This document shows positions 1,864-64,000 of a stretch of DNA of 64,000 bases, one piece after another. This DNA comes from a virus: IMG/VR virus record IMGVR_UViG_3300048507_000465, positions 18,017 through 82,016 of that record, one strand, 5' to 3'. Position 1 is the first letter of the stretch. Each line of letters starts with the position of its first letter. The translations under genes were made by a program, and so were the position numbers. Below the pieces are notes generated by a model that searched no databases, was not told the DNA's origin, and was given only the letters and a program-made list of their open reading frames with translations.

Positions 1864-2544
1864 ATGAAGCATATTAAATCAAAAGCTATATTTGAAAGAT
1901 ATACAAAACTAGATTCTATCTCTAATAAACTATTAGGTGATTGCTTTAGACAGTGGGTATTAGATTTTAAGAACGGTAAAAAATCTTCTAGCTACTCATT
2001 TGAAGTACAGAATCCAGGGTTAACATTTGACTTAAACTGCTCTATCTATTTTAAAGGTAAAGGATTTGAGGTCCTAAACTCTACTGGAGCTGATGGTAGA
2101 GATGAAGACGATGATGGTGATTGGCAAGATCCATTTATTAATGTAGACTTTGCTTGTAACCCAGATTGGTTACCTACTTATTGGGAAGAGATTTACTTTG
2201 TATTAGCAGATGTCTTAAGACATGAGATCGAACACATTACTCAAGATGGTATTGATATTGGTAATTATAGAAAGGGTAAACCTAATGAACCAGATGATAT
2301 GATGAGAATGATGATTAATAATGGTATGTTATCTAAGATGTATTATTTACTACTACCTAAAGAAGTGGATGCAAATTTACAAGGCTTAAGATTTGAGGCT
2401 AAGAAGAGAGGTGAGAAGACCATTGATGCTGTAAATAGATACTTAGACTCAAAAGAAGAGATGGGAGAGATAAATAGTAAAGAAAGAGCAGAAGTCCTAG
2501 TTAAATGGGAAGCTCGTGCAAAACAATTAGGATTTAAACTATGA
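1864..2544 (+). CDS. Zincin-like predicted metallopeptidase with capsid-targeting-like N-terminus
   Basis: The 226-residue protein carries a classic HExxH zinc motif, VLRHEIEHITQ, with HEIEH at residues 120-124. A conserved-looking acidic segment, LPKEVDANLQGL (Glu167), could supply the third ligand. A very acidic stretch at 79-88 precedes the active site. The N-terminus MKHIKSKAIFERY resembles the short N-terminal motif shared by many neighbours. HExxH proteins of this layout occur in T4-like phages without known substrates. It is first in a tightly packed run (next gene overlaps by 4 nt). The zincin call rests on motif and spacing. Whether it is a packaged protease or a structural relic is open, and it is unrelated to the gp21-type prohead protease. 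Confidence 0.65.
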   Translation: MKHIKSKAIFERYTKLDSISNKLLGDCFRQWVLDFKNGKKSSSYSFEVQNPGLTFDLNCSIYFKGKGFEVLNSTGADGRDEDDDGDWQDPFINVDFACNPDWLPTYWEEIYFVLADVLRHEIEHITQDGIDIGNYRKGKPNEPDDMMRMMINNGMLSKMYYLLLPKEVDANLQGLRFEAKKRGEKTIDAVNRYLDSKEEMGEINSKERAEVLVKWEARAKQLGFKL

Positions 2545-2831
2545 GACATTTAAAACAATTTAAAAACTTTATTAACGAGGGTGGAGACCCTGAAAAGAAA
2601 AAAGCTATTAGGGATAAAATACGTGACTTAGATAAAAAGGAAGATGACTTAATGAAGAAGAAGGCTGAAAACGCTAAGAAAATGATGGCGGAAGAAGATA
2701 ATCTAAAAGCAGAGATTTTAAACCTTACAACTCAGAAGTTAGCTATGCAGAAAGCTATAGTAAAAATAGATCTTAAAATATCTACACTTAAGCTTAAACA
2801 AGAAAACGCAAAACCAACACAAACAACATGA
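2541..2831 (+). CDS. Small coiled-coil protein with capsid-targeting-like N-terminus
   Basis: The 96-residue product begins MRHLKQFKNFINEGGD, which fits the shared MKxIxxFxxFxNE pattern with a possible [LI]xE cleavage site after INE. The rest is a long, highly charged heptad-patterned helix rich in Lys, Glu and Asp. It overlaps the zincin gene by 4 nt and the next gene by 4 nt, so translation is probably coupled. By analogy with T4, a small Lys-rich protein with such an N-terminus would be an internal head or scaffold-core protein. That role is inferred. Confidence 0.7.
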   Translation: MRHLKQFKNFINEGGDPEKKKAIRDKIRDLDKKEDDLMKKKAENAKKMMAEEDNLKAEILNLTTQKLAMQKAIVKIDLKISTLKLKQENAKPTQTT

Positions 2832-3184
2832 AGCATTTAATTCATTTTAATGACTTTGTTTTAGAGAACAGAAAAAATAAACCCAATATTAAGAAAAAGG
2901 TTAAAAAGATTAATAAGGTTATTAATAAGCAGTATGATAAAATAGAAAAAGAAACTGCTAGGGCTAAAGAGTTAGCATCAAAACCTGATGTAACTGATAA
3001 AATGTCGGCTACTCTATCTAGAATGAAAGTACAACTAGCTCAAGCAGAAGCTCAGAAACAAGCTGTTAGAAAAAATGTGGAAATTAAAAAAGCTCAGATT
3101 AGAACTGCTAAAGATCAAGCTAAATCAGGTGATGAATTAGAAAAGAAAGCTAAAGAAACTAAAAAAGAAGAGTCTGATAAATAA
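2828..3184 (+). CDS. Lys-rich coiled-coil protein with capsid-targeting-like N-terminus
   Basis: The protein has 118 residues and starts MKHLIHFNDFVLENRK, again matching the shared motif with a Leu-x-Asn position where cleavage would be expected. The remainder is an almost uninterrupted, very basic and acidic coiled coil (for example LAQAEAQKQAVRKNVEIKKA). It resembles the preceding protein in design, if not clearly in sequence. Such short charged helical proteins match T4 internal proteins and prohead-core proteins in composition. Start and stop overlap or abut the neighbouring genes (4-nt overlap upstream, 3 nt to the next). Confidence 0.7.
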   Translation: MKHLIHFNDFVLENRKNKPNIKKKVKKINKVINKQYDKIEKETARAKELASKPDVTDKMSATLSRMKVQLAQAEAQKQAVRKNVEIKKAQIRTAKDQAKSGDELEKKAKETKKEESDK

Positions 3185-3187
3185 CCT

Positions 3188-4864
3188 ATGAAGTATATTC
3201 AAACTCTTACTGAAAAGGGAAAGCTTAAATGGCAAGACTCTGATGCGCCGGATGCTAATGGTAGATTTAAAGACTTAAGTCCTAAAGATCTAGCAGCATG
3301 GTTAATTAAAACCAGAAAGGGTGATATGAAAAAGATTAGTGGTTCACTAAGTCAACAAGTTGCATTTAATAAAAACGACGATCCTGAATACGCAAAGAAA
3401 ATGGATAAGACTAGAACAGAAGTCTACAAGCAAATGGATAGAGAAGATCTATTAGAATCTGTCTTAAACGAAGAGGATTCATATAACGATTATCCAGCTG
3501 CTGCAAAGAAGAATGCACAGATGGCTATTGATTGGAAAGAGAAGTATGGTAGAGATGAAGTACCTGCTGGGACTCCAGTTGGTTGGGCAAGAGCTCATCA
3601 ATTAGCTAAAGGTGAAAAGATCTCAGCAGATACTGTAAAGAGAATGTCTGCATTTAATAGACACAGAAAAAATTCATCAATTGCACCAGAACATAAAGAC
3701 GAACCTTGGAAAGATAATGGCTATGTAGCTTGGTTAATCTGGGGTGGCGACGAAGGTGTTGATTGGGCAATTGAAAAATCAAAAGAAATAGACGCTATGA
3801 AAGAGTCAAAACAAATGAAGTACATTAAACCACTTAACGAAAGAGCTAAACACACATCAACTGATTTTTCTAAACCAGGTAACGATGGTGATATTTACTT
3901 TTCAAAAAGAGAAGGTGACGCAGTCGGCGTTAGATTAGGAGATAAATTACAAATGATTTATGTTTTTCAAGAAGAACCTAAATTAGGAAGGATTCAAAAG
4001 TCAGATAAACGTTGGGAAAACATGGGTCCAGCTTCTGAAGAACTTTTAATTGATTTAAGAGGTAGAGAAGAAGGTAAAATCTTATTTAAGTTTGTTTCTA
4101 CACTTGAAGAATCAGTTAATGAAGGTAAGATGCCGAAGAAATATATTGGCAACGATGAGATAGTCTATCTTAAAACTAAAGAGGATTCAAGAGGTGCTCA
4201 TTACAACCTTTACTACAAAGGGCACGATATTGATAAAGGTGGTCGTAGGTTTGGTAGTGAAAAAGAGCTAGAAGATTTTGCAGCTAATTATATTTTATCT
4301 AACCAATTGTATAAGAAACTAAGGTATGAAGATTCAATACCTTTACCAGAGTCTGTTAATGAAAGTCTTGGTTCTTATGAATATAATAAGTGGATTAAAG
4401 AGAATGGTAAAATTAAATACCCTAAATGGGTTACAGTAACTCGTAAAGAAATTATTAAAAAGGGATTAATGGATTCAGTATATGATTCTGAATCTCACAA
4501 CATGTCTATTTGGATTAACTCTTTAGGTAAGAATTTCTTTGTAATTAACGCTGACTCAAAGAAGAGAGAAAAAGAGTTTGGTAAAAACGGTTCTGCATTT
4601 ATTAATGCATATTACAATGATATAACTGGATATACCGCTTTTGCATGGGAAGCTGCTACAATTTGCCTAGAACTTATTAAACACATAGAGGACAGAATTG
4701 CTAATGGGGAGGAATATGAACCGGCGTACTATTTAGCTAAAGAATATTTTAATAATTTTGGGATGGATACTAAAAGAAGTAGAGTATTTGATTCTACAGT
4801 TAAAAAGCTAAGTAATTATATGGCTGATAATAATCTTGATTCTATGGATTATATGAATAGGTAA
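3188..4864 (+). CDS. Multidomain, polyprotein-like candidate internal head protein
   Basis: This 558-residue protein is a string of small modules separated by near-identical linkers. The N-terminus is MKYIQTLTEKGK. ESVLNE lies at residues 90-95, a second copy of the head motif MKYIKPLNER at 210-219, and ESVNE at 308-312 and 388-392. Module 1 (about 10-88) holds LSPKDLAAWLIKTR. Module 2 (about 98-203) is a domain common in phage head proteins, with TPVGWARAHQLAKGE and AWLIWGGDEGVDWAI. Modules 3-5 are not recognised. The linkers fit the T4 gp21 cleavage rule ([LI]xE, here V/L at P3). I infer a packaged polyprotein cut during head maturation. No enzymatic function is claimed. Confidence 0.7.
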   Translation: MKYIQTLTEKGKLKWQDSDAPDANGRFKDLSPKDLAAWLIKTRKGDMKKISGSLSQQVAFNKNDDPEYAKKMDKTRTEVYKQMDREDLLESVLNEEDSYNDYPAAAKKNAQMAIDWKEKYGRDEVPAGTPVGWARAHQLAKGEKISADTVKRMSAFNRHRKNSSIAPEHKDEPWKDNGYVAWLIWGGDEGVDWAIEKSKEIDAMKESKQMKYIKPLNERAKHTSTDFSKPGNDGDIYFSKREGDAVGVRLGDKLQMIYVFQEEPKLGRIQKSDKRWENMGPASEELLIDLRGREEGKILFKFVSTLEESVNEGKMPKKYIGNDEIVYLKTKEDSRGAHYNLYYKGHDIDKGGRRFGSEKELEDFAANYILSNQLYKKLRYEDSIPLPESVNESLGSYEYNKWIKENGKIKYPKWVTVTRKEIIKKGLMDSVYDSESHNMSIWINSLGKNFFVINADSKKREKEFGKNGSAFINAYYNDITGYTAFAWEAATICLELIKHIEDRIANGEEYEPAYYLAKEYFNNFGMDTKRSRVFDSTVKKLSNYMADNNLDSMDYMNR

Positions 4865-6958: not shown

Positions 6959-7582
6959 ATGGCAAAAAAAATACTATCATTCGAAGAATACGCTGCAAAA
7001 ATAAATGCACCTAACGTTTCTGAAGAAGAAAACGAAGAGTGCCCGTGTGGTACTGATGAAGAAGGTAACTGTTTAGAATGTGAAGAAGGAACAGAAAAAC
7101 CAGCTGAAGAAATAGAAGACGAAGAAGTTGAGTCTGAAGAAGACGAAGAAGTTGAGTCTGGAGAAGACGACGATGACGACGATGACGATGATGAAGAAGA
7201 CGATGATGACGATGACGACGACGATGATGATGACGATGATGACGATGATGAGTCTGAAGAAGTTGAAGTAGAAGATGCTGGAGAAACAGAAGCCCCGGTA
7301 ACTGTAGAAGAGATGTTATCTGAAGGTTACAAAAAAGTAGTTGAAGCTGCATGTGCTTACGAAAAAGACGAATACCAAGATCATACGTTAGAAATGTACA
7401 TGAAAGAGAACGCTGCTCTAGTAGCAACTCTTGCTGCAAAAGCGATGGAAGAGGGTTATGGTGAAGCAAAAGAAACTGAACTAACTCAAGAAATGTACGA
7501 AGCAGTATGTAACGAAATAAAAGATGCGTATTGTAAGAAAATTGAAGAGTTAAAAGAGACTTACGGTGCTGGAAAGGAATAA
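6959..7582 (+). CDS. Extremely acidic poly-Asp protein with capsid-targeting-like N-terminus
   Basis: The 207-residue product starts MAKKILSFEEYAAKI, a variant of the shared head-targeting motif. It then has a Cys-rich segment (residues 28-41, CPCGTDEEGNCLEC) that could bind metal. An acidic tract holds a short internal repeat DEEVES and a run of almost only Asp at 70-97. A helical C-terminal half (about 112-207) follows. Prohead-core proteins of T4 (gp67, gp68) are likewise very acidic, so a scaffold-core or internal-head role is plausible but unproven. Alternatively the Asp tract may bind cations or mimic DNA. Confidence 0.65.
   Translation: MAKKILSFEEYAAKINAPNVSEEENEECPCGTDEEGNCLECEEGTEKPAEEIEDEEVESEEDEEVESGEDDDDDDDDDEEDDDDDDDDDDDDDDDDDESEEVEVEDAGETEAPVTVEEMLSEGYKKVVEAACAYEKDEYQDHTLEMYMKENAALVATLAAKAMEEGYGEAKETELTQEMYEAVCNEIKDAYCKKIEELKETYGAGKE
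7166..7249 (+). repeat. GAY microsatellite encoding poly-Asp
   Basis: An 84-nt stretch of GAC/GAT codons (with two GAA) encodes the Asp run of the acidic protein. Mixed use of GAC and GAT breaks perfect triplet identity, which would reduce slippage. The tract length is a plausible point of variation between related phages. Confidence 0.85.
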
Positions 7583-8370: not shown

Positions 8371-8372
8371 AT

Positions 8373-8879
8373 ATGCCTAGAATACCAGTAGACTTAATTT
8401 ATATGCAGATGGCTTATCAGATAGCCAAGCTATCCTATGCTAAACGTAGACGCGTTGGTTGTATTATCGTGAAAGATACACAAGTAATATCAACTGGATA
8501 TAACGGTACGCCACATGGCTTTGAAAATGATTGTGAAGAAGTACAGGTAAGAGAGATAGAGAATGTTAATCATAAAAAAGTCTTAGAAGAAAAGGGCTAT
8601 GAATGTGAAGACTCATGTTGTTCTAAAGAGGTAACTAAAAGAGAAGTCTTACATGCAGAATCAAATGCATTAGCGAAAGTAAGCAAATCAACACTATCTT
8701 CAGAAGGCGCAGATATGTATGTTACAACTTGCCCATGTTTTGATTGCGCAAAATTAATTATTCAAGCAGGTATTGCAAGAGTATTCTATTCAGAAGACTA
8801 TAGAGATATGGGAGGAGTAGAACTACTAGAACGTGCAGGTATTGAAGTAAAAGCAGTTATATGTTGGAACGCGGAATAG
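8373..8879 (+). CDS. cd: dCMP deaminase (deoxycytidylate deaminase)
   Basis: The protein has 168 residues with the zinc-dependent cytidine/deoxycytidylate deaminase signature: HAE at 94-96 (ligand His94, catalytic Glu96) and PCFDC at 121-125 (ligands Cys122 and Cys125). The N-terminal RRRVGCIIVKD and TGYNGTPHG are typical of dCMP deaminases such as T4 Cd. An insertion at about 54-88 holds four extra Cys and a His, which may form the second zinc site known from T4-type enzymes. The enzyme makes dUMP from dCMP for dTTP synthesis. Its stop overlaps the helicase start by 19 nt, indicating coupling. The start codon lies 2 nt after a terminator-like hairpin. Confidence 0.95.
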   Translation: MPRIPVDLIYMQMAYQIAKLSYAKRRRVGCIIVKDTQVISTGYNGTPHGFENDCEEVQVREIENVNHKKVLEEKGYECEDSCCSKEVTKREVLHAESNALAKVSKSTLSSEGADMYVTTCPCFDCAKLIIQAGIARVFYSEDYRDMGGVELLERAGIEVKAVICWNAE

Positions 8880-10594
8880 CCGAAATCATAAATGAGGCAC
8901 TAGTCACAAATGTATTTGGCAAAGACTTTAAATTTAGAGAGGGTCAAAGAGAGGCTATTGAAGCTATTTGTAATCACTATCTCCAAGATCCAGAAGGGAC
9001 TATTATCTTAGATGCCCCAACTGGAAGTGGTAAATCACTAATTGCTATGTGGTCCGCACACGTCTTAAAAGAACTTGGTAAAAGAGGTTATTTAGTAACC
9101 TCTGATCTAATGCTACAAGATCAGTATGAAGAAGACTTTAAAAGGCTAAAACTTAATTGGCCCAGTATAAGAGGAGTAGACAACTATAATTGTAATGTAA
9201 ACGATCTGCCATTCTCACTTGCTGATTGTAAGATGAAAGGTATTGGGTATGAAGCTGCTGAGAAACTTCCATGCTGGAATAACTGTGGGTATCTTCAGGG
9301 CAGAAAGCGCGCGAAGGAGCTACCTGTAGCTCTCTTCAACTATTCATATTATCTAATACAAAGGAATTATGTAGAGGATAAGATGCAAGAACAAGACAGA
9401 GAGATACCATTTCCTATAAGAGACTTTGTATTCTTTGATGAAGCACATAAGGTAGACAGTATAGTACAATCACACTTTAGTCCTAGAATAGACAGAACAA
9501 CTACAAAGATATTTAAAGAGGTAAACAAGTTTGTACAGAAGCAGGCCATTAGTGCTGCCTGGGTATCTGAGAACAGAATAGAAGATATAGTCGACCGCTT
9601 AATGCGGGAAGACGATCACCAAGAGTTGATGAGGCACATCAGCGAGTTCAGAGGTATTGCCGTGGTTTACCGCAAGGTCAGATCGGCGGCCCTAAAACAA
9701 AGTAAGTCAAGGTTTAAAGGGGGAGATGTCCCTAAGGATTGGCAGACTTTTTTTGGACGAATGGATAGACTTAAAGATATATGGTGTAAGTTTGATGACT
9801 ATTATGATATAATTAAAGAACTTGGTATGGACGCGATTGTTATTGATCGTAAAGAAACTGAAACTAAATTCTTATGTTTGGAAGAGGCAATGATGATTGA
9901 TAAATTCTTACAAAAGAAAAGTGGCTTTAAAGTCTTTATGTCAGCGACTCTAGGGGATATTAGATCATTTGCAAAACATACTAGTATGGGAGCTGCAAAG
10001 GTTATTAGGATGAACAATAATTTTGATTACAAAAAATCCCCCGTGGTTTTCGTCAATAGGCACAAATTGTCTTTTAGAGAACGCGAACAAAATCTCCCCA
10101 AGGTCATAAAGGTTCTTGACAAGATCTTGGAGAAGCACAAAGGACAAAGTGGAATTATTCACGCCGGTTCCTATCAGTTCATGAATGAAATAAATGCTCA
10201 GTCTAAACATAGTTTTAATTTCATAACCTATGATGTAGCCAAGGAGAGGCAAGGTGCAATTAGAAATTTTAACGAACAAGATGGTAAAATACTTGTAGGT
10301 CCTTCTCTGTTAGAAGGTTTAGACCTGAAAGATGACAAGTCCAGATTTCAGATCTTCTTTAAAGTACCATATCCATCATTGGGAGATCCACTCGTAAAGG
10401 CTAAAATGTCTGCATTCCCAGGATGGTATGATTGGAAAACAGGAATTGCAATACAACAAGGTGCAGGAAGATCGATTAGATCTAAAGACGATTGGGCAAT
10501 AACATATATTTTAGACGCATGTTTTAGAAGTTTATCTAATAAAAAAGATTTCTTTCCACCGTCGTTTGAAGAAAGAATAAAAACAATTTACTAA
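8861..10594 (+). CDS. DinG/XPD-like superfamily 2 DNA helicase with Fe-S cysteines
   Basis: The 577-residue protein has Walker A APTGSGKS at 52-59 and the DEAH box FFDEAHKVD with DEAH at 193-196. Motif III is MSATLGD. Later motifs include GPSLLEGLDLKDD and motif VI QGAGRSIRS. Between Walker A and DEAH lie four cysteines (111, 123, 138, 142) at the place where XPD and DinG carry their 4Fe-4S cluster. It is therefore probably an iron-sulfur 5'-3' helicase for repair or R-loop/D-loop resolution. It overlaps the dCMP deaminase gene by 19 nt. It is distinct from the UvsW-type helicase at 55432. Confidence 0.88.
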   Translation: MLERGIAEIINEALVTNVFGKDFKFREGQREAIEAICNHYLQDPEGTIILDAPTGSGKSLIAMWSAHVLKELGKRGYLVTSDLMLQDQYEEDFKRLKLNWPSIRGVDNYNCNVNDLPFSLADCKMKGIGYEAAEKLPCWNNCGYLQGRKRAKELPVALFNYSYYLIQRNYVEDKMQEQDREIPFPIRDFVFFDEAHKVDSIVQSHFSPRIDRTTTKIFKEVNKFVQKQAISAAWVSENRIEDIVDRLMREDDHQELMRHISEFRGIAVVYRKVRSAALKQSKSRFKGGDVPKDWQTFFGRMDRLKDIWCKFDDYYDIIKELGMDAIVIDRKETETKFLCLEEAMMIDKFLQKKSGFKVFMSATLGDIRSFAKHTSMGAAKVIRMNNNFDYKKSPVVFVNRHKLSFREREQNLPKVIKVLDKILEKHKGQSGIIHAGSYQFMNEINAQSKHSFNFITYDVAKERQGAIRNFNEQDGKILVGPSLLEGLDLKDDKSRFQIFFKVPYPSLGDPLVKAKMSAFPGWYDWKTGIAIQQGAGRSIRSKDDWAITYILDACFRSLSNKKDFFPPSFEERIKTIY

Positions 10595-10611
10595 TTTTAA
10601 ATATAATAAAT

Positions 10612-10839
10612 ATGGGATTTAATAAATTACATATTCCAGATCTGGATTACTTAAAAGAATCTTTAAAATCAAAAGGTAACGATGAGTTTGTAGATTTTTG
10701 GAAAAGAAGATATATTAAGGCTGACGCTATTATAGGTCCGCCGGATTCACATGATTTTATTAAACAAATTCTAGATCGTGAGTATAATTATAGAACAACT
10801 GGTCAAACTAGTATTGACTTTGATAAAGTTGATGAATAA
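10612..10839 (+). CDS. Small protein of unknown function
   Basis: The product has 75 residues, begins MGFNKLHIPDLDYLKESL, is charged, and is predicted to be mainly helical. It opens the tail/baseplate run after a 17-nt gap holding an AAATATAATAA sequence loosely like the late element. No family is recognised. Position before several other small proteins and the baseplate genes suggests a morphogenesis accessory role. Confidence 0.6.
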   Translation: MGFNKLHIPDLDYLKESLKSKGNDEFVDFWKRRYIKADAIIGPPDSHDFIKQILDREYNYRTTGQTSIDFDKVDE

Positions 10840-10849
10840 AAATAAAAAT

Positions 10850-11470
10850 ATGGCAACAACAGAAACTAAACCAAAAATTTATGTTTGGTACAAAACTGAG
10901 AGAGCAGGTGATACTGTAACAGTAAAACAAACTGATGGAGACTTTACAATATTTACAGATGGTACAAGATGTAGAACTTCTTTAATTAATGAAATGTTGA
11001 TAGAGGCTAAAAGTGAAGCCAATGCACTGGATTTAGCACAACCCTTTCTTTCTTTTAATAAAGACAGTGGGCCAGGAGGTCCCAAAGAAACTAAGGCTAT
11101 TCAAGAAATTGAAGAGGTAAATCCTTCTAAAGATACTCAACCTACTGCAGAAGTAAATGTAATGTTAGAGATGTTAAAGAAGATTAGTGCTAAAAATACT
11201 ATTACTATGCCACTTGAATTAAATATACCATCTAATGAAGTATATGATTTGTTTAAAGATCAGATGGATATTACAAAAGCAGATTTAAATGAGCAGATTT
11301 TGGCGCTTATATTAAGCCAGATAAATAATTTACAAGAACAATTAAAGCCTCAAGCTGAGGAATTTATTAAAAACTACTATAATGGCAAAACAAACAGAAA
11401 AAACACTAACAGCAGAAGAAACTCAACAAATAGCGGAGGCGACGCAAGCGCCCCAGACATCACCTACTAG
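10850..11470 (+). CDS. Unknown protein, possible tail-assembly factor
   Basis: I choose the ATG at 10850 (MATTETKPKIYVWYKT), which follows the upstream stop by 10 nt and has the A-rich AAAATAAAAAT leader typical of this genome. An earlier ATG at 10778 would lie inside the previous gene. The 206-residue product has a beta-rich N-terminus, a low-complexity middle (about 70-100), a segment TITMPLELNIPSNEVYDLF and a helical region. Its low-complexity Asn/Ser tail is encoded in the overlap with the next gene. The 89-nt overlap in the +1 frame is reminiscent of frameshift-linked tail chaperone pairs, but no slippery site is obvious. Confidence 0.6.
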   Translation: MATTETKPKIYVWYKTERAGDTVTVKQTDGDFTIFTDGTRCRTSLINEMLIEAKSEANALDLAQPFLSFNKDSGPGGPKETKAIQEIEEVNPSKDTQPTAEVNVMLEMLKKISAKNTITMPLELNIPSNEVYDLFKDQMDITKADLNEQILALILSQINNLQEQLKPQAEEFIKNYYNGKTNRKNTNSRRNSTNSGGDASAPDITY

Positions 11471-11842: not shown

Positions 11843-12166
11843 ATGATTACTATTAGTATAGAACCTGCGGATAACGGTGTGGTTAAATATTTAATTGACG
11901 ATAATGTTAATGGAGGTGGGGAAGAATATACATCAAGGGTTGTTTATGACTTTGATGGCTATTTAGGAAGAGCTCAACAGGTTAAGTTTTTAAAAGACTT
12001 AGTGTTGGATTTAGGCTTAAGTACTGGTAGTGATATTGATCGTGAACAATTGCAGATCAAAACAGACTGGGGTTTAAAATTTATCCCAGATGAAAACCAA
12101 ATAAAAACAAGAATCAATCAACTGCAAAAAGAAATAAAAAGGCTTGATTCTTTAATAAAGAAATGA
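11843..12166 (+). CDS. Small protein of unknown function
   Basis: The 107-residue product has a beta-rich N-terminal two-thirds (MITISIEPADNGVVKYLIDD) and a C-terminal amphipathic helix (IKTRINQLQKEIKRLDSLIK). It begins 5 nt after the previous gene and its stop overlaps the next start by 4 nt. The family is not recognised. Location among small genes before the baseplate module suggests a tail or baseplate assembly role. Confidence 0.6.
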   Translation: MITISIEPADNGVVKYLIDDNVNGGGEEYTSRVVYDFDGYLGRAQQVKFLKDLVLDLGLSTGSDIDREQLQIKTDWGLKFIPDENQIKTRINQLQKEIKRLDSLIKK

Positions 12167-12570
12167 AACTACACGTAGAAGGTGTATGGTGTAAAACTAG
12201 AACTGAGTTTGAAAAATTAGCAAAGTCTGGTGAATACGATTTAACAGTCTCTTATTTTGACATATTTAATAGATTGATAAAATCAGATCCTTATAGTAAG
12301 GAGCCATCAGATATTATAGTATCTCTTTATATTAGAAAGTTAATTCAGAAATTAATTAATGATTCTATTGAAAAAGAAAAAGAAGGAGCTAAAATGCTTT
12401 ATATGTTTAAAAACCTAGATACTACAGCTGTTCTAGGATTTAAAGGGTTTGTTAATGATTTAACTGAAACCCCATGTGATTTAGATCTAGTTATTGTTAA
12501 TAGATGCGATTATCCTAAAAAAGGAGTATTAAGCAAATTTGACAATGTTAGATTTATAGACAATGATTAA
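12163..12570 (+). CDS. Unknown protein of the tail/baseplate block
   Basis: The 135-residue product starts MKLHVEGVWCKTRTEFEKL and has mixed alpha/beta composition. It overlaps both neighbours (4 nt upstream, 8 nt downstream), consistent with a translationally coupled assembly operon. No known domain is visible. Confidence 0.6.
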   Translation: MKLHVEGVWCKTRTEFEKLAKSGEYDLTVSYFDIFNRLIKSDPYSKEPSDIIVSLYIRKLIQKLINDSIEKEKEGAKMLYMFKNLDTTAVLGFKGFVNDLTETPCDLDLVIVNRCDYPKKGVLSKFDNVRFIDND

Positions 12571-50753: not shown

Positions 50754-51122
50754 ATGAAAACATTTAATGATTATTTAGTTGAGCAACAATTGACTGAAAC
50801 AGATATGCAACTTTTACAAGAAGGACTTCAACAAGAGTGGACTCAAGATTTAGAAGATAAAGTTGACTTTGCTTTAGAGCAATTCGTACAACAATACCAA
50901 AAAGAAGATGGTACTTTTGAATTGGATAGATTAGAAGAAGCTTTTGTAAATGAAGGGCTTTTGGGTTCTATCTTTGGTGGTTTAGCTGGATTTGCTTTAG
51001 GTAAATCTGTTGGTAAAGTTATTGCTAAAGTACTTGGTATTCAAAAAGGTATTTTCTACGATTTATTAACATCTCGTTTAGTCGGTGCCGCGCTAGGTGC
51101 TGCAATGGGTAAAAGAATGTAA
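50754..51122 (+). CDS. Capsid-targeted prohead-core-like protein with glycine-rich membrane-active tail
   Basis: The 122-residue protein starts MKTFNDYLVEQQ, almost the T4 capsid-targeting sequence (MKTYQEFIAE). A helical acidic part (about 12-60) follows. FVNE ends at residue 67. A Gly-zipper-rich tail then begins GLLGSIFGGLAGFALGKSVG and runs to GAALGAAMGKRM (68-122). The VNE site fits the gp21-type [LIV]xE cleavage rule, so cleavage would free a 55-residue amphipathic, membrane-active-looking peptide. T4 prohead-core proteins gp67/gp68 are similarly small and cleaved to internal peptides. I infer a head-core role and possible membrane activity of the tail. Confidence 0.7.
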   Translation: MKTFNDYLVEQQLTETDMQLLQEGLQQEWTQDLEDKVDFALEQFVQQYQKEDGTFELDRLEEAFVNEGLLGSIFGGLAGFALGKSVGKVIAKVLGIQKGIFYDLLTSRLVGAALGAAMGKRM

Positions 51123-56974: not shown

Positions 56975-58888
56975 ATGGGATCAATAAAATTAAAATCTTT
57001 TTCTTCATTTGCACATAGCCACAAAATAGACGCTGCTGCTAAATTAGAAGAAGAAAAAATGCTTGCTAGAAATAAGGCAGCAGATAAATTTAAAGCATTA
57101 CTAAATGACTTTAATGTAACTTCAATTAAAGAACTTAAAGAAGATGATAAAAAATCTTTTTTTTCTAAATTAGGGAATTCTGAAATATCAGAGTCTTTAG
57201 CAATTATTGAAGAGGGAACAAGATCTCAAATCGGTAAAATCAAAAAGAACGGAAAAATCTCAACAGTGTATATGCACTATGATGGTTACCCAGACCATAT
57301 GTTACCTACAATTAAAAAGGGTTACAAAGATGGAAAGGCAGTAGACACTCTACTGAAGAAAGGGGGTGGTTCAGGTCTAGAAGTAAATGTAGACGATATT
57401 AAATTCTACGGCGACAAGACCACTACTGACGGGAATATGAAAGATACTGAGAAGTTTGTAAAAGACGCTGCTAATAACGGCGGAGCTGAATTCATCTACC
57501 TATATTCTGAAAGAGATTCTAAATGGTACATGGTTGATGTTTATGACAGTTACGATTTAGTTCCAGCATTTGAATCTATGATAATCAATGAATCATTTAA
57601 ACCAAGTAAAGGTAACGCAAGAGACGCAAAGAAGGTTTCTAAGTTTTTAAATACATTCTTTATGAAGCATTCTGCAATTGCAAACTCTGAAAGTTTTTTA
57701 GGAGCATGCAGATACTTATTATCTGAGTCATTAACAGACGCTAACTTCCACTCATACAGAGACCCAGTAAGTAAAGCACTAGGGGGTAAGATTAGTACTA
57801 TTATGGTAGATGTTGAAAGCCTGGGTGGTATGTCATTACCAATCGGTAAGAAAACACTTATGAACTTATTAGACGAACACTATTCTGGTGTAGCTAATGC
57901 AGCTGGATGGTCAGGTATCGGTATTGTTGAAGGTATGGCATTATTCTTAGATGGATTTGGTTACTCTCAACCAGCACAAAAAATAGTAGATGCATTTAAT
58001 TTAATATGGGCTAATGAGTCTGTAATGAATGAAGGTAATGCATTTTTAGCAGCAAGAGCGAAAGCGATTGAAGAAGATGCTGAAGAATTTGAATTTAACG
58101 GCAAGAAATTTCCTGTGATTAAAGAGGACCTAGAAATTGAAGAGGTTACAGAAGGCGATACTGCTAAAGTTTCTAAAAAAGAAATTCAATTCCATTTGGA
58201 TGCGTTTGAAAAAGGAGATATTGAAGGTGAGGATTTAGCACAAGCTATTGGAGAAATACTTTATGGTAAGTTAAGAGAAAGCGATAAAGCTCAAGACCCA
58301 GGGGAAGAAGTTCCAGGTGGTGAAGAGTCTGATGAAACTGAAGAGCAATTTCCAGATGATTTTGATGCAACAAATCCTGCTGAAATGGGCAAGATGACTA
58401 ATGAAGATGAAGTTACTGAAGCTAAATTCGTAAAAGATTTTGATAAAGATGTTTTAGATGCTGAAACCAAAGCAGATATAACAACTTATTATCCATCAGC
58501 TAAATTCTTTATGGGTAAAATGACACACTTCTTTGGAGAACTAGAACCAAACTTATTCTTTAAAGCTTACTATGCTAAATACTATAAAGAAGATACAGGC
58601 AAGAAAATTGATGGTGAATTTAAAATCACTTCAATCTATTCTGAAAAGGGTAGTAGATATGTAAACCTATATGTTGAATCTGCAGATACGGTAGAAGCTC
58701 CAACAGTAAATGAAGCTGAAGTAAAATCAGATGAAGAATTTAAAGAGTATGCATTCACTGTTTTAGGAAAAGCATTTGGAGATAAATTTGACGAAGAAAA
58801 AGCACAAGAAGTAGTAGACGGTTTATTGTCTAAGCATGGTGACGATTATGGAGCCGCTGTTGGCGCATTAACTGCATCATTAGGATAA
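56975..58888 (+). CDS. Large multi-module candidate internal head protein
   Basis: The 637-residue protein begins MGSIKLKSFSSFAHSHK, a divergent head motif. Recurrent linker-type sites divide it into modules: ESMIINES at 200-207, NESVMNEGNA at 347-356, VTEGD at 391-395, EVTEAK at 489-494 and TVNEAEVK at 577-584. Module 1 contains SQIGKIKKNGKISTVYMHYD with the following GYPDHML, a domain widespread in phage proteins. After 348, AFLAARAKAIEEDAEEFEFN precedes another phage module, GKKFPVIKED. It looks like a polyprotein or multi-cleaved internal head protein. No enzymatic activity is visible. Confidence 0.65.
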   Translation: MGSIKLKSFSSFAHSHKIDAAAKLEEEKMLARNKAADKFKALLNDFNVTSIKELKEDDKKSFFSKLGNSEISESLAIIEEGTRSQIGKIKKNGKISTVYMHYDGYPDHMLPTIKKGYKDGKAVDTLLKKGGGSGLEVNVDDIKFYGDKTTTDGNMKDTEKFVKDAANNGGAEFIYLYSERDSKWYMVDVYDSYDLVPAFESMIINESFKPSKGNARDAKKVSKFLNTFFMKHSAIANSESFLGACRYLLSESLTDANFHSYRDPVSKALGGKISTIMVDVESLGGMSLPIGKKTLMNLLDEHYSGVANAAGWSGIGIVEGMALFLDGFGYSQPAQKIVDAFNLIWANESVMNEGNAFLAARAKAIEEDAEEFEFNGKKFPVIKEDLEIEEVTEGDTAKVSKKEIQFHLDAFEKGDIEGEDLAQAIGEILYGKLRESDKAQDPGEEVPGGEESDETEEQFPDDFDATNPAEMGKMTNEDEVTEAKFVKDFDKDVLDAETKADITTYYPSAKFFMGKMTHFFGELEPNLFFKAYYAKYYKEDTGKKIDGEFKITSIYSEKGSRYVNLYVESADTVEAPTVNEAEVKSDEEFKEYAFTVLGKAFGDKFDEEKAQEVVDGLLSKHGDDYGAAVGALTASLG

Positions 58889-58908: not shown

Positions 58909-60180
58909 ATGAAGATATACACTAATTTTACAGAATTTTTAAACGAGAAACTCCAGGTAAACAACTTGGAGGATTTCGTATTTGAAGGTGGGGCAGCAGG
59001 GCATATGATGCACCCTTTCGATGACCACTCATTAACTTTTGCAGATTTCAAGACTATTGTTAAATCTTCATTACAAGGTGGTTTAGATTTCGAAGAGGCT
59101 GCAACTGAAAAGACTGATGGTCAAAACCTATTTGCAACTGTAAAAGATGGTCAAGCAATGTTTGCTAGAAATAAAGGGCAAATGATAAATCCACTAGACC
59201 TAAATGGTATCATTAAGATGTTTACTGGCCACGCGTCAAAGCTGGTTGAAGAAACATATATCTTTGCTGCTAAAGATCTAGCAGAGGCGCTCCCAGCGCT
59301 TAAGGATCAATCAATGTTCGCGAACGGATTGAATTTCGTTAATATGGAACTAATTTACTCTAAAAACCCTAATGTTATCTATTATGACAGAGATGTTATT
59401 CAATTTCATGGTATTGTAGAGACTGATGGTGAAGGTAATCAAACTGGAAAGCAAAATATTGCTACAGAACTAGTTAAAGCTCTTAAAGAATTAAAGTCAG
59501 ATGTTCAAAAGACGTTTACAATAATTCCCCCTCAAATTTTAAAGTTAGGAAAAGACATTAACTTTGATGAGAGAGTCGGCTATTACGAAAAGGCGATAAA
59601 TAAACTGAGAGATACTTATAGTCTATCAGATCAAGATGAGGTTAAAATGTATCACGAGATGTGGTGGAGAGGCCAAATCGAAGAGAACTTTGCAGACCTA
59701 GAACCGGCACATAAAGAGGGTTTACTTTTAAGATGGGCTTACTTAGATAAGAAGACACTTAAGTTAACTGCATTAAAGAAGGAATTAACACCGGAACAAA
59801 ATAAGGCTGTTAAAGATTTTGATGGTCAAAGAAATAAGAAGTATAAAGAAAACATTTTACCTTTTGAGAATCTATTTTTAGAGTTAGGTGCAGATGTTTT
59901 AAAGAACGCTTCTAATTTTGTAGCTGCTAATCCAGATGCTGAGAAAGCAAGATTACATAATCAGATTAGAACTGAAGCTGGCAAGATTAAAAAGAATGGC
60001 GACCTTACTCAAATTGAAAAGGTTGAAAAAGAACTAAAAAGACTAGAGGGAATTGGTGGTATTGAGTCGATCATCCCAACAGAAGGAGTGGTCTTTAAAT
60101 TTAAAGGAAAAACCTTTAAACTAACAGGTACTTTTGCTGCGATTAATCAGCTAATGGGTATCATAAAATACGGAAGATAA
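58909..60180 (+). CDS. Ligase-type nucleotidyltransferase with capsid-targeting-like N-terminus
   Basis: The 423-residue protein starts MKIYTNFTEFLNEKLQV, the shared head motif with a likely site after LNE. LEDFVFEGGAAG follows. Motif I of covalent nucleotidyltransferases is AATEKTDGQN (KTDG at 68-71, lysine 68 as candidate nucleotide acceptor). Motifs IV/V are seen in EGVVFKFKGKTFKLTG (392-407). The family includes RNA and DNA ligases. This branch occurs in T4-like marine phages with a similar head-type N-terminus. A packaged ligase or RNA-modifying enzyme is proposed. Substrate is unknown. Confidence 0.68.
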   Translation: MKIYTNFTEFLNEKLQVNNLEDFVFEGGAAGHMMHPFDDHSLTFADFKTIVKSSLQGGLDFEEAATEKTDGQNLFATVKDGQAMFARNKGQMINPLDLNGIIKMFTGHASKLVEETYIFAAKDLAEALPALKDQSMFANGLNFVNMELIYSKNPNVIYYDRDVIQFHGIVETDGEGNQTGKQNIATELVKALKELKSDVQKTFTIIPPQILKLGKDINFDERVGYYEKAINKLRDTYSLSDQDEVKMYHEMWWRGQIEENFADLEPAHKEGLLLRWAYLDKKTLKLTALKKELTPEQNKAVKDFDGQRNKKYKENILPFENLFLELGADVLKNASNFVAANPDAEKARLHNQIRTEAGKIKKNGDLTQIEKVEKELKRLEGIGGIESIIPTEGVVFKFKGKTFKLTGTFAAINQLMGIIKYGR

Positions 60181-62039
60181 TGGCATTACAGAATCTAAAA
60201 AAATATTTTGAAGGAGCTAATTCTAATGAGATTATGGATCTACTTAACAATAAGTGTATTGTTACAGAAAAAATAGATGCATCATCTTTTCATGTAAAAA
60301 GAGATAATACAGAAATATTATATTACAAGTCCGGCGAGAAACATAGTATGAATAGAATAGATCGTACTATTGTAAGATATTATGAAAACGCAATTAGGCA
60401 TTTTAAATCTATTTCAGAAGATTCTATTAAAGATATGCCTTTTGATTGGAAGTTCGGATTTGAGTATTTAGGAGATAACAAAACTATTGATATAGAATAT
60501 GATACTTTACCAAAGAATAACTTAGTATTAACCCATATTCAAGTTTTACAACCTTCTAATCCTAATAAAGTTAGAAAGGTAATTAGAGATACTAAAATTT
60601 TAAATAAATGGGCAGATATACTAAATGTAGCGCCACCGCCTGTTATTTTTGAAGGACTTTTACATTCAGGTCAAAAATCCGCTATTATAGATATTTTAGA
60701 AACTAGTATAAATGAGTTTGAAGATAGATTTGAAAACCCTGATAACCCTTCGTTTACTAGAGTGGTATATAATATTTTTAATGAAAATCAAAAGGCATCT
60801 GCTTTAATGAATGATTTATCAAAAGATGTATCTGGGTTTATTATTAATTTCCACGATGGTAAAAAGATAATACCTTTTGTTTTAGAAAAATTTAATAAAA
60901 AATCAAAAGTAGAAAGAAAACCATCTGACATGTATCAGATTTCTATATTAGATATGGTTGAACATTTTTCACAATTTGATATTGAATCTTTAGAATTAAA
61001 AAGCGAAGAATCAGATTCTAGATATTTAGAATTAATGTCTATAATGTTTAATGATTATATAAAAAGTAATGCTACAAAATATATTGGAGCTAAATTTGAT
61101 TCTGCAGATTTTGCAGAATCTCCAATGTTTGAATTAAATCATAAATTCTTAACAAACGAAAAAACATTAACTTTAGTACAAGATAAAATATTATCTGAGT
61201 TATTTAAAATTGCATTAGGTAGTTTTAGAAGAAAAAGACAAAAAGAAACAGATTTAATTAATATAGATCTTATGAATGAATTAAATTCTATTATTGATAA
61301 AATAGAAAGTAAGGCTATTGCTAAAGCTAACGAAGGGGATGTCCTTAATTTTAAACAATACTTGGTAAACCAAAAAATATCTGCTGAAGTAAAACCGGTT
61401 ATGGAAGCTTTAAAAGTAGACCATCCAGAAAAAGGTAAACAATTAGTAAATATGTTTGTTGGTAGATTCCAACCATTTACATTAGGACATGCTAAAGTTG
61501 TAGAAACAATCCATAAACAAAATGGTTACCCTGTAGTTATTCTATTAGTTAAAGCTAAGAATAAGAAAAAGGAAGATTCATTTAAGAGACCTTATGATGA
61601 GGCAACTCAAGTGGCTATGATAAACAGATTAAAGGGTAAATTACCTATTGAAGATATTTTTGTAATTCCAACTGGAGGCATTGATACCATGTTTAATGCA
61701 ATGCGACCTAAATACGAACCGGTATTATGGGGAACAGGAAGCGATAGAATGAAGACCTATGGTTATCAAGTAGATAAACAAGAATATAGAGATGCTCTAG
61801 ATGTTAGAGATGATTTTGGTTTATTTGAAATACCTAGAACAGGAAAGAACATATCGGCAACTCAAGTAAGAAATGCAATGTTAGATGGTGATGAGAAGCT
61901 CTTTAAGAAGTTAACTCCTAGACCACTACATAATATGTATGCTGAGTTAAAACAAAAATTAGAGGACTCGATGGGAGTTATGGCAGAATCTACAGAAGTA
62001 GAGTTCTTAACCTTCGATGATTTTATTAAGAATATATAA
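60180..62039 (+). CDS. Bifunctional ligase-type nucleotidyltransferase / NMN adenylyltransferase-like fusion
   Basis: The 619-residue protein fuses two catalytic modules. Residues about 1-250 are ligase-like, with EKIDASSFHVKR (Lys31 candidate acceptor), FGFEYLG and SGFIINFHDGKK. Residues about 422-590 are a cytidylyltransferase/NMNAT-type Rossmann fold, with NMFVGRFQPFTLGHAKVVET (TLGH at 434-437) and ISATQVRNAM (558-567). Between them VLNFKQYLVNQK (388-399) resembles an internal head-targeting motif, and the C-terminus ends EFLTFDDFIKNI. The ATG overlaps the previous stop by 1 nt. Possible roles are NAD metabolism, RNA capping or RNA repair. The fusion is clear, the substrate is not. Confidence 0.75.
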   Translation: MALQNLKKYFEGANSNEIMDLLNNKCIVTEKIDASSFHVKRDNTEILYYKSGEKHSMNRIDRTIVRYYENAIRHFKSISEDSIKDMPFDWKFGFEYLGDNKTIDIEYDTLPKNNLVLTHIQVLQPSNPNKVRKVIRDTKILNKWADILNVAPPPVIFEGLLHSGQKSAIIDILETSINEFEDRFENPDNPSFTRVVYNIFNENQKASALMNDLSKDVSGFIINFHDGKKIIPFVLEKFNKKSKVERKPSDMYQISILDMVEHFSQFDIESLELKSEESDSRYLELMSIMFNDYIKSNATKYIGAKFDSADFAESPMFELNHKFLTNEKTLTLVQDKILSELFKIALGSFRRKRQKETDLINIDLMNELNSIIDKIESKAIAKANEGDVLNFKQYLVNQKISAEVKPVMEALKVDHPEKGKQLVNMFVGRFQPFTLGHAKVVETIHKQNGYPVVILLVKAKNKKKEDSFKRPYDEATQVAMINRLKGKLPIEDIFVIPTGGIDTMFNAMRPKYEPVLWGTGSDRMKTYGYQVDKQEYRDALDVRDDFGLFEIPRTGKNISATQVRNAMLDGDEKLFKKLTPRPLHNMYAELKQKLEDSMGVMAESTEVEFLTFDDFIKNI

Positions 62040-62058
62040 ACAAATATAACATAATACT

Positions 62059-62454
62059 ATGAAAAGAATAGATACATTTGAAGCATTTACTCATAACACA
62101 GTTAATGAGAAAATAGCACTTGGATCTTACTACTTTAGTAAATACGCATTTGATGGTTTTGATTTACCAGCTAAAGGTGAAACTAGTTTCGCTTTAGTGC
62201 TACACAATACTGTAGAAGTAAATGGAGAATCAATGTATTTAAGATCTAAAAACGACCATAATGTTGGAGCTGGATTTAGACCTAAGGTTGTAACTGTTGC
62301 TGCAGATCAAGCATCTATAGAAGAAGCATATAAAACTCATGTAAAAATTGGAGGTAAAGGTGCAAACCTTTCAATCTCTTATGGATCATTTATTGTCAAG
62401 GGACAAAACTGTGCATATACAGAAATTGATGGTATAACAAAAAAGCTTAAATAA
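62059..62454 (+). CDS. Small capsid-targeted protein, tandem paralogue 1
   Basis: The 131-residue protein starts MKRIDTFEAFTHNTVNEKIA with a candidate cleavage site after VNE. The mature part is small and beta-rich, with LPAKGETSFALVLHNTVEVN. The same LPAKGET segment occurs in the next gene, indicating duplication. A weak AATATATAAA sequence lies just before it. The predicted role is a small internal head protein; the fold is unknown. Confidence 0.7.
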   Translation: MKRIDTFEAFTHNTVNEKIALGSYYFSKYAFDGFDLPAKGETSFALVLHNTVEVNGESMYLRSKNDHNVGAGFRPKVVTVAADQASIEEAYKTHVKIGGKGANLSISYGSFIVKGQNCAYTEIDGITKKLK

Positions 62455-62456
62455 TT

Positions 62457-62873
62457 ATGAAAAGAATAAAAACATTCGAAAGCTTTACTGGTAATAGTCG
62501 ACCAGTAAATGAAGCGACACCATACGGATATAAATACTACGATGGTTACTATGCATACAAGTGGGCGTATGATGACATGGGAGACTTTCTTCCTGCTAAA
62601 GGAGAAACTTATTGGCTAGTAAAAGCATATAATGAGGTATTATGTGACGGCGATAAGATAAAACTAGACGAAGGAAACGGATATATGACAAGACACATAG
62701 GTGTTTACAAAACCGAAGAGGAAGCAAAGAAAGTATATGATAAGGTAGTTAAAGAACGTCCTTTTAAAACTGAGATTTCATTTTCAATGGGAACATTATA
62801 TGCTAAAACTAAATTTGCCCGTGAGTATAACGAGACAGAAGGCGTTATGGGTAAAGTTAAAATAATGAGATAA
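62457..62873 (+). CDS. Small capsid-targeted protein, tandem paralogue 2
   Basis: The 138-residue protein starts MKRIKTFESFTGNSRPVNEA, again with VNE. It shares LPAKGET and the following strand layout with the previous gene, but the mature domain is more aromatic (YGYKYYDGYYAYKWAYDD). It follows 2 nt after its paralogue. As in T4 IP proteins, the mature part has diverged more than the targeting end. The function is unknown; an injected effector is a hypothesis. Confidence 0.7.
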   Translation: MKRIKTFESFTGNSRPVNEATPYGYKYYDGYYAYKWAYDDMGDFLPAKGETYWLVKAYNEVLCDGDKIKLDEGNGYMTRHIGVYKTEEEAKKVYDKVVKERPFKTEISFSMGTLYAKTKFAREYNETEGVMGKVKIMR

Positions 62874-62875
62874 CC

Positions 62876-63865
62876 ATGAAAAAATTCGAAGATTTCTTAA
62901 AAGAAGGTAAAAAGATACAAATTAAAAGAAGGTATACTGAGAACCATCCTGCTTCAACAGTAGGTAAAACTGCTAGCGTAAGAAACGCAGTACTTAAAGC
63001 AGTTAAAGATGGTGTAATCACAGAAGAAGAGTTTACTAAAATACTTTCTGAATTATCTGGTGACCATAGACAGTGGAGAACTAGAAATACAAAATATTTT
63101 AACGTTTCTGAAGAGGGTATTAAACTTTCAAAGTGGGGTCTTAGAATTTTAGCTGAATTAGATGAAGAACCTAAAGCTGCTGGGGTATTCGAAGCTACAG
63201 TAGTTATGGATGCAATGGATCCTAAATCAAAGATACTTAAAAAACTTTTAAAGAAACATAAAGTTACAATGAAAGTTTTAGATCCTAGTGGACCGAGTGG
63301 TTGGCCAGAAGTTGAGCTAACAGGTTCAAGAGAAGATCTACAATCAGTTTTAGCATCTCCTGATGGATGGGACGATCCAGAACTTGGAGAGTATATCGAA
63401 GAGTCAGCAGTTAATGAGAAGATCAAAGTTACTAAAGACGAATGGCCTTATATTGAATTTAAAGATGGTGGTAAAAAGCACAAAGTAGAATTTGATTACG
63501 AAGATATTATCGATGACCATGGTAACGAGGGTCAAGATCAATACTGGATCGGTAAAGATGAAGATGGTCAAGAATGGCAAATAGACGTTTCTGCTGATTA
63601 CAGGGGTGAAGTAATGGAGGTGTGGTTTGATACTTTAATAGTAGCAGAGAATAAGTTAGCAATTACCGAAAAATATGAAGTTATTTTTAGTGACGGTATA
63701 GTTCAAGGTAAAAAATTCAAACGCGAACAACAAGCACTTGATTTTATGAAGAAGGAGATTGCTTCTAATAAAAAACTAAGAGATATTGCAGTTTACAAAC
63801 CAGGAATGCACTCAACTACTCAAACTGAATTAGTTGTTAAATTCTGGGGAGACGGATCCTACTGA
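62876..63865 (+). CDS. Multi-module capsid-targeted protein
   Basis: The 329-residue protein starts MKKFEDFLKEGKKIQIKRRY, an [LI]xE-type site after LKE. At least three further segments follow: a helical part (about 30-97), an alpha/beta part with LLKKHKVTMKVLDPSGPSGW, then a junction EESAVNEKI (175-183). Next come a beta part with WPYIEFKDGGKKHKVEFDY, a junction ITEKYEV and a last compact module ending FWGDGSY. The linker-separated design is the same as in the proteins at 3188 and 56975. The following gene starts within 61 nt. Confidence 0.68.
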   Translation: MKKFEDFLKEGKKIQIKRRYTENHPASTVGKTASVRNAVLKAVKDGVITEEEFTKILSELSGDHRQWRTRNTKYFNVSEEGIKLSKWGLRILAELDEEPKAAGVFEATVVMDAMDPKSKILKKLLKKHKVTMKVLDPSGPSGWPEVELTGSREDLQSVLASPDGWDDPELGEYIEESAVNEKIKVTKDEWPYIEFKDGGKKHKVEFDYEDIIDDHGNEGQDQYWIGKDEDGQEWQIDVSADYRGEVMEVWFDTLIVAENKLAITEKYEVIFSDGIVQGKKFKREQQALDFMKKEIASNKKLRDIAVYKPGMHSTTQTELVVKFWGDGSY

Positions 63866-63925
63866 GATAATGTGTCTAAAAAAGATAAAGATTTAGCAAG
63901 TAAAAAATTACAAGAAAACATAAAT

Positions 63926-64000
63926 ATGGAAAATACATTTTCAATACACGAATCATTTTCAGCATTTACTGGAGCAAACGGATTCTTAAACGAAAAATTA
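63926..64000 (+). CDS. Start of another capsid-targeted protein (3' truncated by window edge)
   Basis: The ATG at 63926 opens a frame to the window edge that begins MENTFSIHESFSAFTGANGF and continues LNEKL. A GTG at 63872 in the same frame would add 18 residues but break the motif. The pattern of hydrophobic, Phe-rich residues and an LNE site matches the shared head motif, so the block continues beyond this window. Nothing more can be said of the protein. Confidence 0.6.
   Translation, partial: MENTFSIHESFSAFTGANGFLNEKL

Follow-up and report, generated by a model that had tools for sequence, protein, structure and literature searches.

A short capsid-targeting-like tag shared by otherwise unrelated proteins in an uncultured phage record and its relatives

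Why would proteins with different mature domains share one type of short peptide at their ends? The question is raised by IMGVR_UViG_3300048507_000465, a virus record of 82,016 bases, of which we analyzed bases 18017-82016 (the window, 64,000 nucleotides; coordinates below are those of the window unless a relative is named). A reading of the sequence alone had proposed that at least ten proteins here start with a peptide close to MKTYQEFIAE of phage T4, that the peptide directs them to the prohead core, where the gp21 protease removes it, and that the cargo set exceeds that of T4. Our analysis favors the same explanation, with a probability of roughly 0.87: the shared peptide would be a T4-type capsid targeting sequence (CTS) with a load, cut, and inject mechanism. 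A T4-like targeting peptide with a gp21-type site remains the best account of the bipartite layout, of the proteins matched in T4, and of the protease and the tagged gene in the gp67/68 slot of relatives.

The tag has two halves, an aromatic-x-x-aromatic motif and then [LIV]xE, and was searched with the expression ^M.{0,2}[KR].{0,6}[FY]xx[FY].{0,10}[LIV]xE within the first 28 residues, with no proline at xx. It fits 8 of the 90 open reading frames (ORFs) of the 82-kb record (G000), namely those starting at 2541, 2828, 6959, 50754, 58909, 62059, 62457, and 62876. Shuffles that keep the N-terminal composition have a mean of 0.18 and a maximum of 3, and none of 1,000 reaches 8; the motif is commoner than chance. 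An F-only version of the expression also fits 8 of 90 ORFs, compared with a shuffle mean of 0.05 and none of 405 windows at internal Met. All eight N-termini named in the sequence-only reading are present at their starts, including MENTFSIHESFSAFTGANGFLNEKL at 63926, whose ORF is cut by the end of the window and record. The figure of at least ten proved generous: eight ORFs satisfy the full expression, and ten is reached only with weaker cases, which are the truncated ORF 63926, ORF 56975 (FxxF without [LIV]xE), and ORF 60180 with its C-terminal tag. The ORF at 1864, with which the proposed range of tagged genes began, lacks [LIV]xE and does not fit. This 226-aa ORF (1864-2544) contains HEIEH, a possible zinc-peptidase motif, and has no match in Pfam or PHROG.

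All tagged genes of the window lie on the plus strand, and their tags are given here up to the putative cut. ORF 2541..2831 (96 aa; MRHLKQFKNFINE, nucleotides 2541-2579) is followed by the lysine-rich ORF 2828..3184 (118 aa; MKHLIHFNDFVLE, nucleotides 2828-2866), for which a role as Rz-spanin was rejected (E 0.003, probably coiled coil). ORF 6959..7582 (207 aa; MAKKILSFEEYAAKINAPNVSE) is acidic, with D or E at 87 of 207 residues, and ORFs with similar starts occur in the related loci L142 and L145. ORF 50754..51122 (122 aa; MKTFNDYLVE) belongs to a cluster in which the F-only expression fits 45 of 64 members. This ORF is conserved, and a glycine-rich hydrophobic C-terminal segment directly follows AFVNE; a cut there would free the segment. 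The predicted RNA ligase-like ORF 58909..60180 (423 aa) has its tag MKIYTNFTEFLNE at nucleotides 58909-58947 and a second, invariant glutamate, E26, preceding GGAAGHM. It is followed by ORF 60180..62039, which resembles an Rnl2-type ligase joined to a nucleotidyltransferase and carries the C-terminal tag MAESTEVEFLTFDDFIKNI (nucleotides 61980-62036). Two ORFs with spaced tags come next, 62059..62454 (131 aa; MKRIDTFEAFTHNTVNE, nucleotides 62059-62109) and 62457..62873 (138 aa; MKRIKTFESFTGNSRPVNE, nucleotides 62457-62513), then 62876..63865 (329 aa; MKKFEDFLKE, nucleotides 62876-62905) and the truncated 63926..64000 (FSIHESFSAFTGANGFLNE, followed by KL). Two weaker cases are ORF 56975..58888 (637 aa), with an FxxF start (MGSIKLKSFSSFAH) and no [LIV]xE directly after it, and ORF 3188..4864 (558 aa), with a degenerate start, MKYIQTLTE, an internal near-copy, MKYIKPLNE, and a partial match to phrog_2859; the latter does not satisfy the expression.

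The expression was built from the examples of the sequence-only reading and from knowledge of T4, which makes the count in G000 partly circular; the T4 matches and the relatives therefore serve as independent checks. Among 228 ORFs of T4 (20001-168903), it picks three only, ipI, ipII, and ipIII, all internal head proteins. In 30 of 1,000 shuffles at least three ORFs fit; the weight lies in which three they are. Amber-suppressor work on T4 IPIII assigned targeting mainly to residues 4 and 7 and processing to residues 8 and 10 (review PMC9026906). In MKTYQEFIAE these are Y4, F7, I8, and E10, and the same positions are conserved in this clade. MKTYQEFIAE is indeed the leader of IPII and IPIII, but not, as had been stated, of Alt: the start of Alt differs, and we rejected such an N-terminal tag for that protein. 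The proposal of a larger cargo set than in T4 agrees with the higher number of tagged genes per genome.

Relatives were collected with ORF 58909 as the query; 80 of the 88 related loci that it found were retained (G and L numbers here), and the copy in G002 is 98% identical. The expression matches 5 of 43 ORFs in the G002 part (5 is reached by 0 of 1,000 shuffles) and 3 of 52 in the G001 part (reached by 3 of 1,000). With one protein per cluster in 103 overlapping records (the window and the loci), 5.5 of 84 clusters are tagged, compared with 0.12 at internal Met and 0.10 after shuffling, and at the family level a tight pattern occurs at the N-termini of 27.6 of 307 clusters compared with 2.3 expected from interiors; the loci used overlap or repeat records, and single-linkage clusters merge fused proteins. 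A 21-base DNA pattern of the tag, to which ORF 2541 is the only exact match in the record, is matched 51 times across 19 family contigs (2.28 Mb; none in 3 contigs), compared with 2 matches in the same contigs for the reversed pattern and 2 in seven comparison records (1.52 Mb), one of them in the relative LR756500. In alignments, M1, K2, and E13 are invariant and F7 near-invariant over 19 otherwise unlike proteins, the rows being picked for the tag; E13 of [LIV]xE is nearly invariant among 35 homologues of ORF 58909 (alignment A2), and the processing-site E13 also appears in alignments A4 (19 rows) and A5 (23 rows), whose rows were tag-selected.

These data bear on whether the motif might arise by chance from N-terminal composition, with its AT-rich starts and MKK-type openings. 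MK starts are frequent in AT-rich phages, and the expression was modelled on examples. Against this stand the shuffles of G000, the conserved residues of the 19 unlike, tag-selected proteins, and the Bacteroidota phages, in which none of 220 ORFs fits (PTm1, 0 of 117; pT24, 0 of 38; crAss-like phi14:2, 0 of 65). We regard chance composition as extremely improbable. S-PM2 has one fitting ORF among 62. The single fit among 67 ORFs in a 50-kb stretch of RM378, a portal ORF with a TTG start, was taken as chance.

Could the tagged genes instead be a single paralogous family that has diverged? Neighboring genes in arrays do have near-identical starts, and two genes in L053 are true duplicates (85% identity over the next 60 nt). 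In other cases, the likeness stops with the tag. In two adjoining genes of L034 the tag is identical at 39 of 39 nt and the next 60 nt are 28% identical; T4 ipII and ipIII give the same picture, with 30 of 30 nt and then 32%. In G016, nine tagged ORFs are consecutive, and six of them share one 13-residue tag or differ from it by one change; seven follow one another in G007, and a 7.8-kb stretch of G012 contains ten, interspersed with other ORFs. When mature parts were compared within these three arrays, no homologous pair was found at E<0.01. Likewise, 56 tagged ORFs of chosen regions fall into 39 mature-domain clusters with differing folds and Pfam families; the regions were chosen because the DNA pattern is present in most of them, and neither the 56 nor the 28 of them that lie among 256 ORFs of 15 regions should be read as frequencies. 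Paralogy is thus very unlikely, and the suggestion that the mature domains are otherwise unrelated was borne out.

The arrays also suggest a genomic setting. In G007, one short untagged ORF separates the seven tagged ORFs from a helicase gene (L137) that is 52% identical to the helicase gene at 8861 in the window; 15 of 92 ORFs sampled in G007 are tagged, the sampling being partly guided by the pattern. Since varying, unrelated tagged genes precede the helicase gene, the locus, including the left block of the window, looks like a hypervariable cargo island.

If the tag targets capsids, a processing protease should be encoded by the same phage. A Pfam S77 (gp21 family) protease is present above the Pfam cut-off in 13 of 18 relative contigs, and the evidence on head genes derives from these relatives: judged by synteny with G002, the record of the window ends before its head genes. 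In G002 the downstream order is portal, a 113-aa tagged ORF (MKIYKTFEEFITE), protease, and capsid protein, where all names except protease and capsid protein were given by eye. T4 has gp67 and gp68 in the slot between portal and protease, and both are annotated as proteins of the prohead core. Among 13 contigs, which include two near-identical pairs, the slot gene has a clear aromatic-xx-aromatic tag in nine (G001, G002, and G007-G013; after an inner Met in G007 and G008, and by eye in a frame missed by the caller in G011). In three others (G003, G004, G015) the first aromatic residue is I or L (I/L-xx-F), with [LIV]xE additionally absent in G003 and G004. The slot is empty in G018.

In the relatives, the protease forms one protein with a long scaffold-like part in which YLAE, HVAE, and NE sites abound, a fusion annotated as scaffold and protease in PTm1. 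Such fusions, with many [LIV]AE repeats, were seen in L098 (1813-3993, minus strand), L101, L104, and L106 (41854-43548); a scaffold built in this way would carry its own destroyer. Proteins with FxxW or FxxI variants at their starts, such as FENWYSKIVES and FESWYKSITES, directly follow the capsid gene in L122 (3200-4273), L123 (3122-4366), and L125 (3302-4312; coordinates of all three in the direction of reading), and may be further core proteins. A separate segment, GMGxVxLP...GSGD[VK], stands after an xxE site in the major capsid protein, and also in dissimilar head-neighbor proteins, some of DUF3008 type (L098 321-1697, minus strand; L101 17041-18435; L005 14377-15108; L037 15443; L106 43618-45468 and 40795-41628). 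The two copies per genome are strikingly alike in G001 and G011, and mimicry of a capsid arm is possible. A test of this similarity gave p 0.009 over 11 related, non-independent contigs, with the own capsid protein scoring best in 2 of 11 only (G001 and G011).

The sequence-only reading treated the tags as an N-terminal set, which is accurate for most of them and too narrow for the rest. Among homologues of ORF 60180, 65 of 72 (46 of 52 distinct sequences) have the tag at the C-terminus, for example LTFEQFINKI, and the predicted model of ORF 60180 places a low-confidence linker at 601-609 with a short helix on the tag. Of the seven without it, four (L061, L062, L068, L080) are fusions with the tag at the junction (e.g., LLTFNDFINES), and three (L042, L084, L108) have it neither at the C-terminus nor at a junction. 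The family of ORF 62876 includes long polyprotein-like ORFs of 718 aa (G002), 830 aa (G001), and 1076 aa (L043), the parts of which are divided by ESVVNE or FESFSDFVGANFLNE. ORFs 62876 and 63926 of the window correspond to the first and last parts of this longer ORF. The tag of ORF 63926, which had been counted as a separate tagged protein, is real, and its counterpart is internal in the relatives, where the protein matches an inner domain. The TGA at 63863-63865 ends ORF 62876; in frame, the stretch continues in relatives such as L100, and the stop may be a real gene split or an assembly error.

Cleavage-type sites are also frequent outside the N-terminal tag. In 51 tagged clusters, the density of [LIV]NE is 4.1 per 1000 residues compared with 1.0 after shuffling, and in 256 other clusters it is 1.9 compared with 0.95; in the window, the tag blocks contain 9 compared with 2.5 expected, and the helicase and tail block 15 compared with 11.1. 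This distribution matters for a third alternative, that the tag docks proteins somewhere other than the head (the tail, a replication complex, or the membrane) and that [LIV]xE is just the end of a short helix. Clustering of tagged genes upstream of the helicase gene (window 8861, L137) would suit such a role, as would PTm1, which has the protease and no tags, and the case for head packaging is itself based on sequence. Yet the T4 matches are internal head proteins only, a tagged gene occupies the gp67/68 slot, none of the 23 ORFs of the tail block is tagged, and [LIV]NE is in excess in tagged clusters, though also, to a lesser degree, in untagged ones. Docking elsewhere is therefore unlikely, and we return to the CTS reading.

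From the tag, its sites, the genomic setting, and cargo similarities, we infer packaging, cleavage, injection, and activity of the cargo. The FxxF half would dock the precursor on the prohead core, the scaffold of which would in this group carry the fused S77 protease. Once the shell is complete, the protease would cut after [LIV]xE and free the mature cargo inside the head, to be ejected along with the DNA. The tag would act as a portable module that is mostly N-terminal, C-terminal on ORF 60180, and interdomain in fused cargo, whose domains would be parted by this cut.

What might be delivered? In ORF 58909, K68, D70, G71, E392, G393, and K404 are invariant in 35 sequences (KTDG and EG..K), and KxDG with a downstream EG..K is what we take to be the motif set of the ATP-dependent ligase superfamily. 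Its predicted model (pLDDT 86.6) has a best structure match with a VIA Z of 8.6 (rmsd 3.9, 183 aligned); in this comparison, Z 7-8 is common for models that lack a clear match. RNA or DNA ligases occupy rows 1-34, and the first clearly unrelated row has Z 4.6. Foldseek returned nothing below E 0.001 (best 0.006), and sequence comparison with the PDB gave unrelated weak matches only. We therefore describe ORF 58909 as a predicted RNA ligase-like protein. ORF 60180 matches T4 Rnl2 (Foldseek E 2e-7) and CoaD-type enzymes (2e-5), with a nucleotidyltransferase domain model above cut-off. A G002 protein near CCA and poly(A) nucleotidyltransferases starts with MLESYSQYTLLLE, followed by A; it fits the expression only without K/R and does not reach the cut-offs curated for the NCBI models.

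In the relatives, G012 encodes a homologue of the Thoeris inhibitor Tad3 (L138 8682-9440) that matches PDB 9b7d_B at E 4e-35 (query 48-246 on chain residues 7-190 of 194) and Pfam PF25185 at 77.5 bits (cut-off 27). Ahead of the PDB match stands a leader of 42 residues that includes the tag and, at 39-42, SINE. A 2H protein in G007 (L152 2262-2801) is weakly Acb1-like (Pfam 28.3 bits, cut-off 27; PDB Acb1 E 0.37) and also scores 30.1 bits with the 2'-5' RNA ligase family (cut-off 27). Islands of relatives further contain ATP-grasp proteins and zeta-toxin-like P-loop kinases, with one kinase member in each of two sets. Most other tagged proteins matched no Pfam family, and the tagged ORFs searched in the window included no Tad3, Acb1, or kinase gene. 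The recognizable members point to a kit that acts early, in RNA repair and counter-defence. According to a 2026 review (PMC13282480), phiKZ injects Tad1, which is a precedent for counter-defence proteins carried in the virion.

Several observations weigh against the CTS reading or narrow it. Its support lies at the sequence level, in the tag, its sites, their setting, and the likeness of the cargo. The starts of T4 gp21, gp22, gp67, and gp68 do not show the motif, and no S77 match was found in the 82-kb record, where portal and capsid genes were not searched. PTm1 and pT24 have related protease-scaffold proteins and no tags, which makes tags dispensable for such heads, and a stretch of tagless PTm1 contains 34 [LIV]NE compared with 14.5 expected. 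The residue after [LIV]NE is enriched for A (3.5x) and S (2.3x) in tagged clusters, and also in untagged ones (2.9x and 1.6x). Counts in G003 (2 of 85 ORFs, reached by 34 of 1,000 shuffles) and LR756500 (2 of 78, reached by 86 of 1,000) are not clearly above chance. Two of the 15 chosen regions (L140, L150) have no tagged ORF, and pairwise comparison of the window tags in DNA found no near-identical pair. At C-termini, the loose FxxF occurs in 5.7 of 80 clusters at an interior rate of 7.8%, and the tight pattern in 4.9 of 307 compared with 2.3. The loose form is not enriched overall at C-termini, and the C-terminal claim accordingly depends on particular families.

The window record has T4-type baseplate genes and a gp13-like neck gene. 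With the G002 capsid protein as query, the nearest named record is the uncultured 462-kb phage LR756500 (48%), followed by Prevotella Lak phages (37%) and Tenacibaculum phage PTm1 (35%), and the host is therefore probably a species of Bacteroidota. Window positions 1-25000 had no DNA relatives in the phage collection, and tRNA and Rfam searches gave no matches. By eye, a Shine-Dalgarno sequence is not obvious before most gene starts. Collagen-like Gly-x-y repeats occur in one ORF each of the window (46483-47307) and L004 (94-1182); L004 also has ORFs that by eye are small heat-shock-like, DnaJ-like, and PhoH-like (8540-8914, 10374-11165, and 12029-12712).

A broader proposal, to which we give even odds, is that FxxF with [LIV]xE forms a load-and-release code that is independent of position and used throughout the T4 superfamily, and that in this clade it has given rise to exchangeable islands and to some tens of different packaged proteins per virion. 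If so, the code at either terminus would dock any protein on the prohead core, and between domains it would let one gene yield several packaged proteins. Counter-defence and RNA-repair proteins of the virion would then act ahead of any phage gene expression, and the same code would account for the C-terminal propeptide of T4 Alt, which lacks an explanation so far, by a role that can be tested. A cargo tag would allow injected proteins, most without a known family, to be listed from genomes alone. The recognizable cargo of relatives includes one inhibitor of bacterial immunity, and perhaps a second, which offers a route to new counter-defence proteins, and more tags would become available for packaging proteins in phage heads.

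How does this compare with known systems? In T4, IPI, IPII, and IPIII likewise combine aromatic-xx-aromatic with [LI]xE, direct or spaced, on differing mature parts, and the spaced form of IPI (MKTFKEF-TSTTTPVST-ITE) resembles the tags at 62059 and 62457. The clade described here differs in having more tagged genes per genome, including large enzymes, in its C-terminal and junction tags and fused cargo, and in its hosts. Its mature cargo is also not small and basic like the T4 internal proteins, as the acidic ORF 6959 and the 423-aa ORF 58909 illustrate, and we do not propose that the two sets are homologous. T4 Alt is cut by gp21 after ITE-6 and LTE-619, and the source text (PMC5694885) asks what the two propeptides do. 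The 63-residue C-terminal propeptide has FASF at 647; two more FxxF lie outside it, at 250 and 498. Among 11 aligned Alt-type sequences the region is missing in one, and FxxF is present in 8 of the 10 others within a linker of variable length, two Marfavirus sequences having SxxF instead. We infer that the FxxF of the Alt propeptide is a C-terminal tag, like that of the ORF 60180 family; the likeness concerns the tag only, and no homology is claimed.

Other phages share parts of this scheme. In P1, an N-terminal signal within 30 residues suffices to package DarB, which resembles the role proposed here; the authors found no consensus among Dar proteins, and P1 is said to be without a separate scaffold (PMC9024508). 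SPN3US and phiKZ resemble our clade in their gp21-family protease and processed head proteins, with identical N-termini of gp53 and gp54, but their propeptides mostly exceed 100 residues, SPN3US cuts at A-x-E, and a short tag on many proteins is not described in the source text (PMC5694885). Polyvalent proteins (Iyer et al. 2017) are also multidomain and predicted to be injected with DNA; the source text describes no CTS-like tag or interdomain prohead cleavage (PMC5512222). The "N-terminal motif" of RaK2, as presented in its source, concerns tail spikes. The literature search found no virion proteome of PTm1, and open-licence PMC articles, with subscription journals mostly outside, yielded no such tags in this clade, no C-terminal CTS, and no tagged RNA ligases. 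The CTS as a kind is already known; as far as the literature searched shows, what is new here is its scale, its use at C-termini and junctions, and a cargo that can be seen in the genome.

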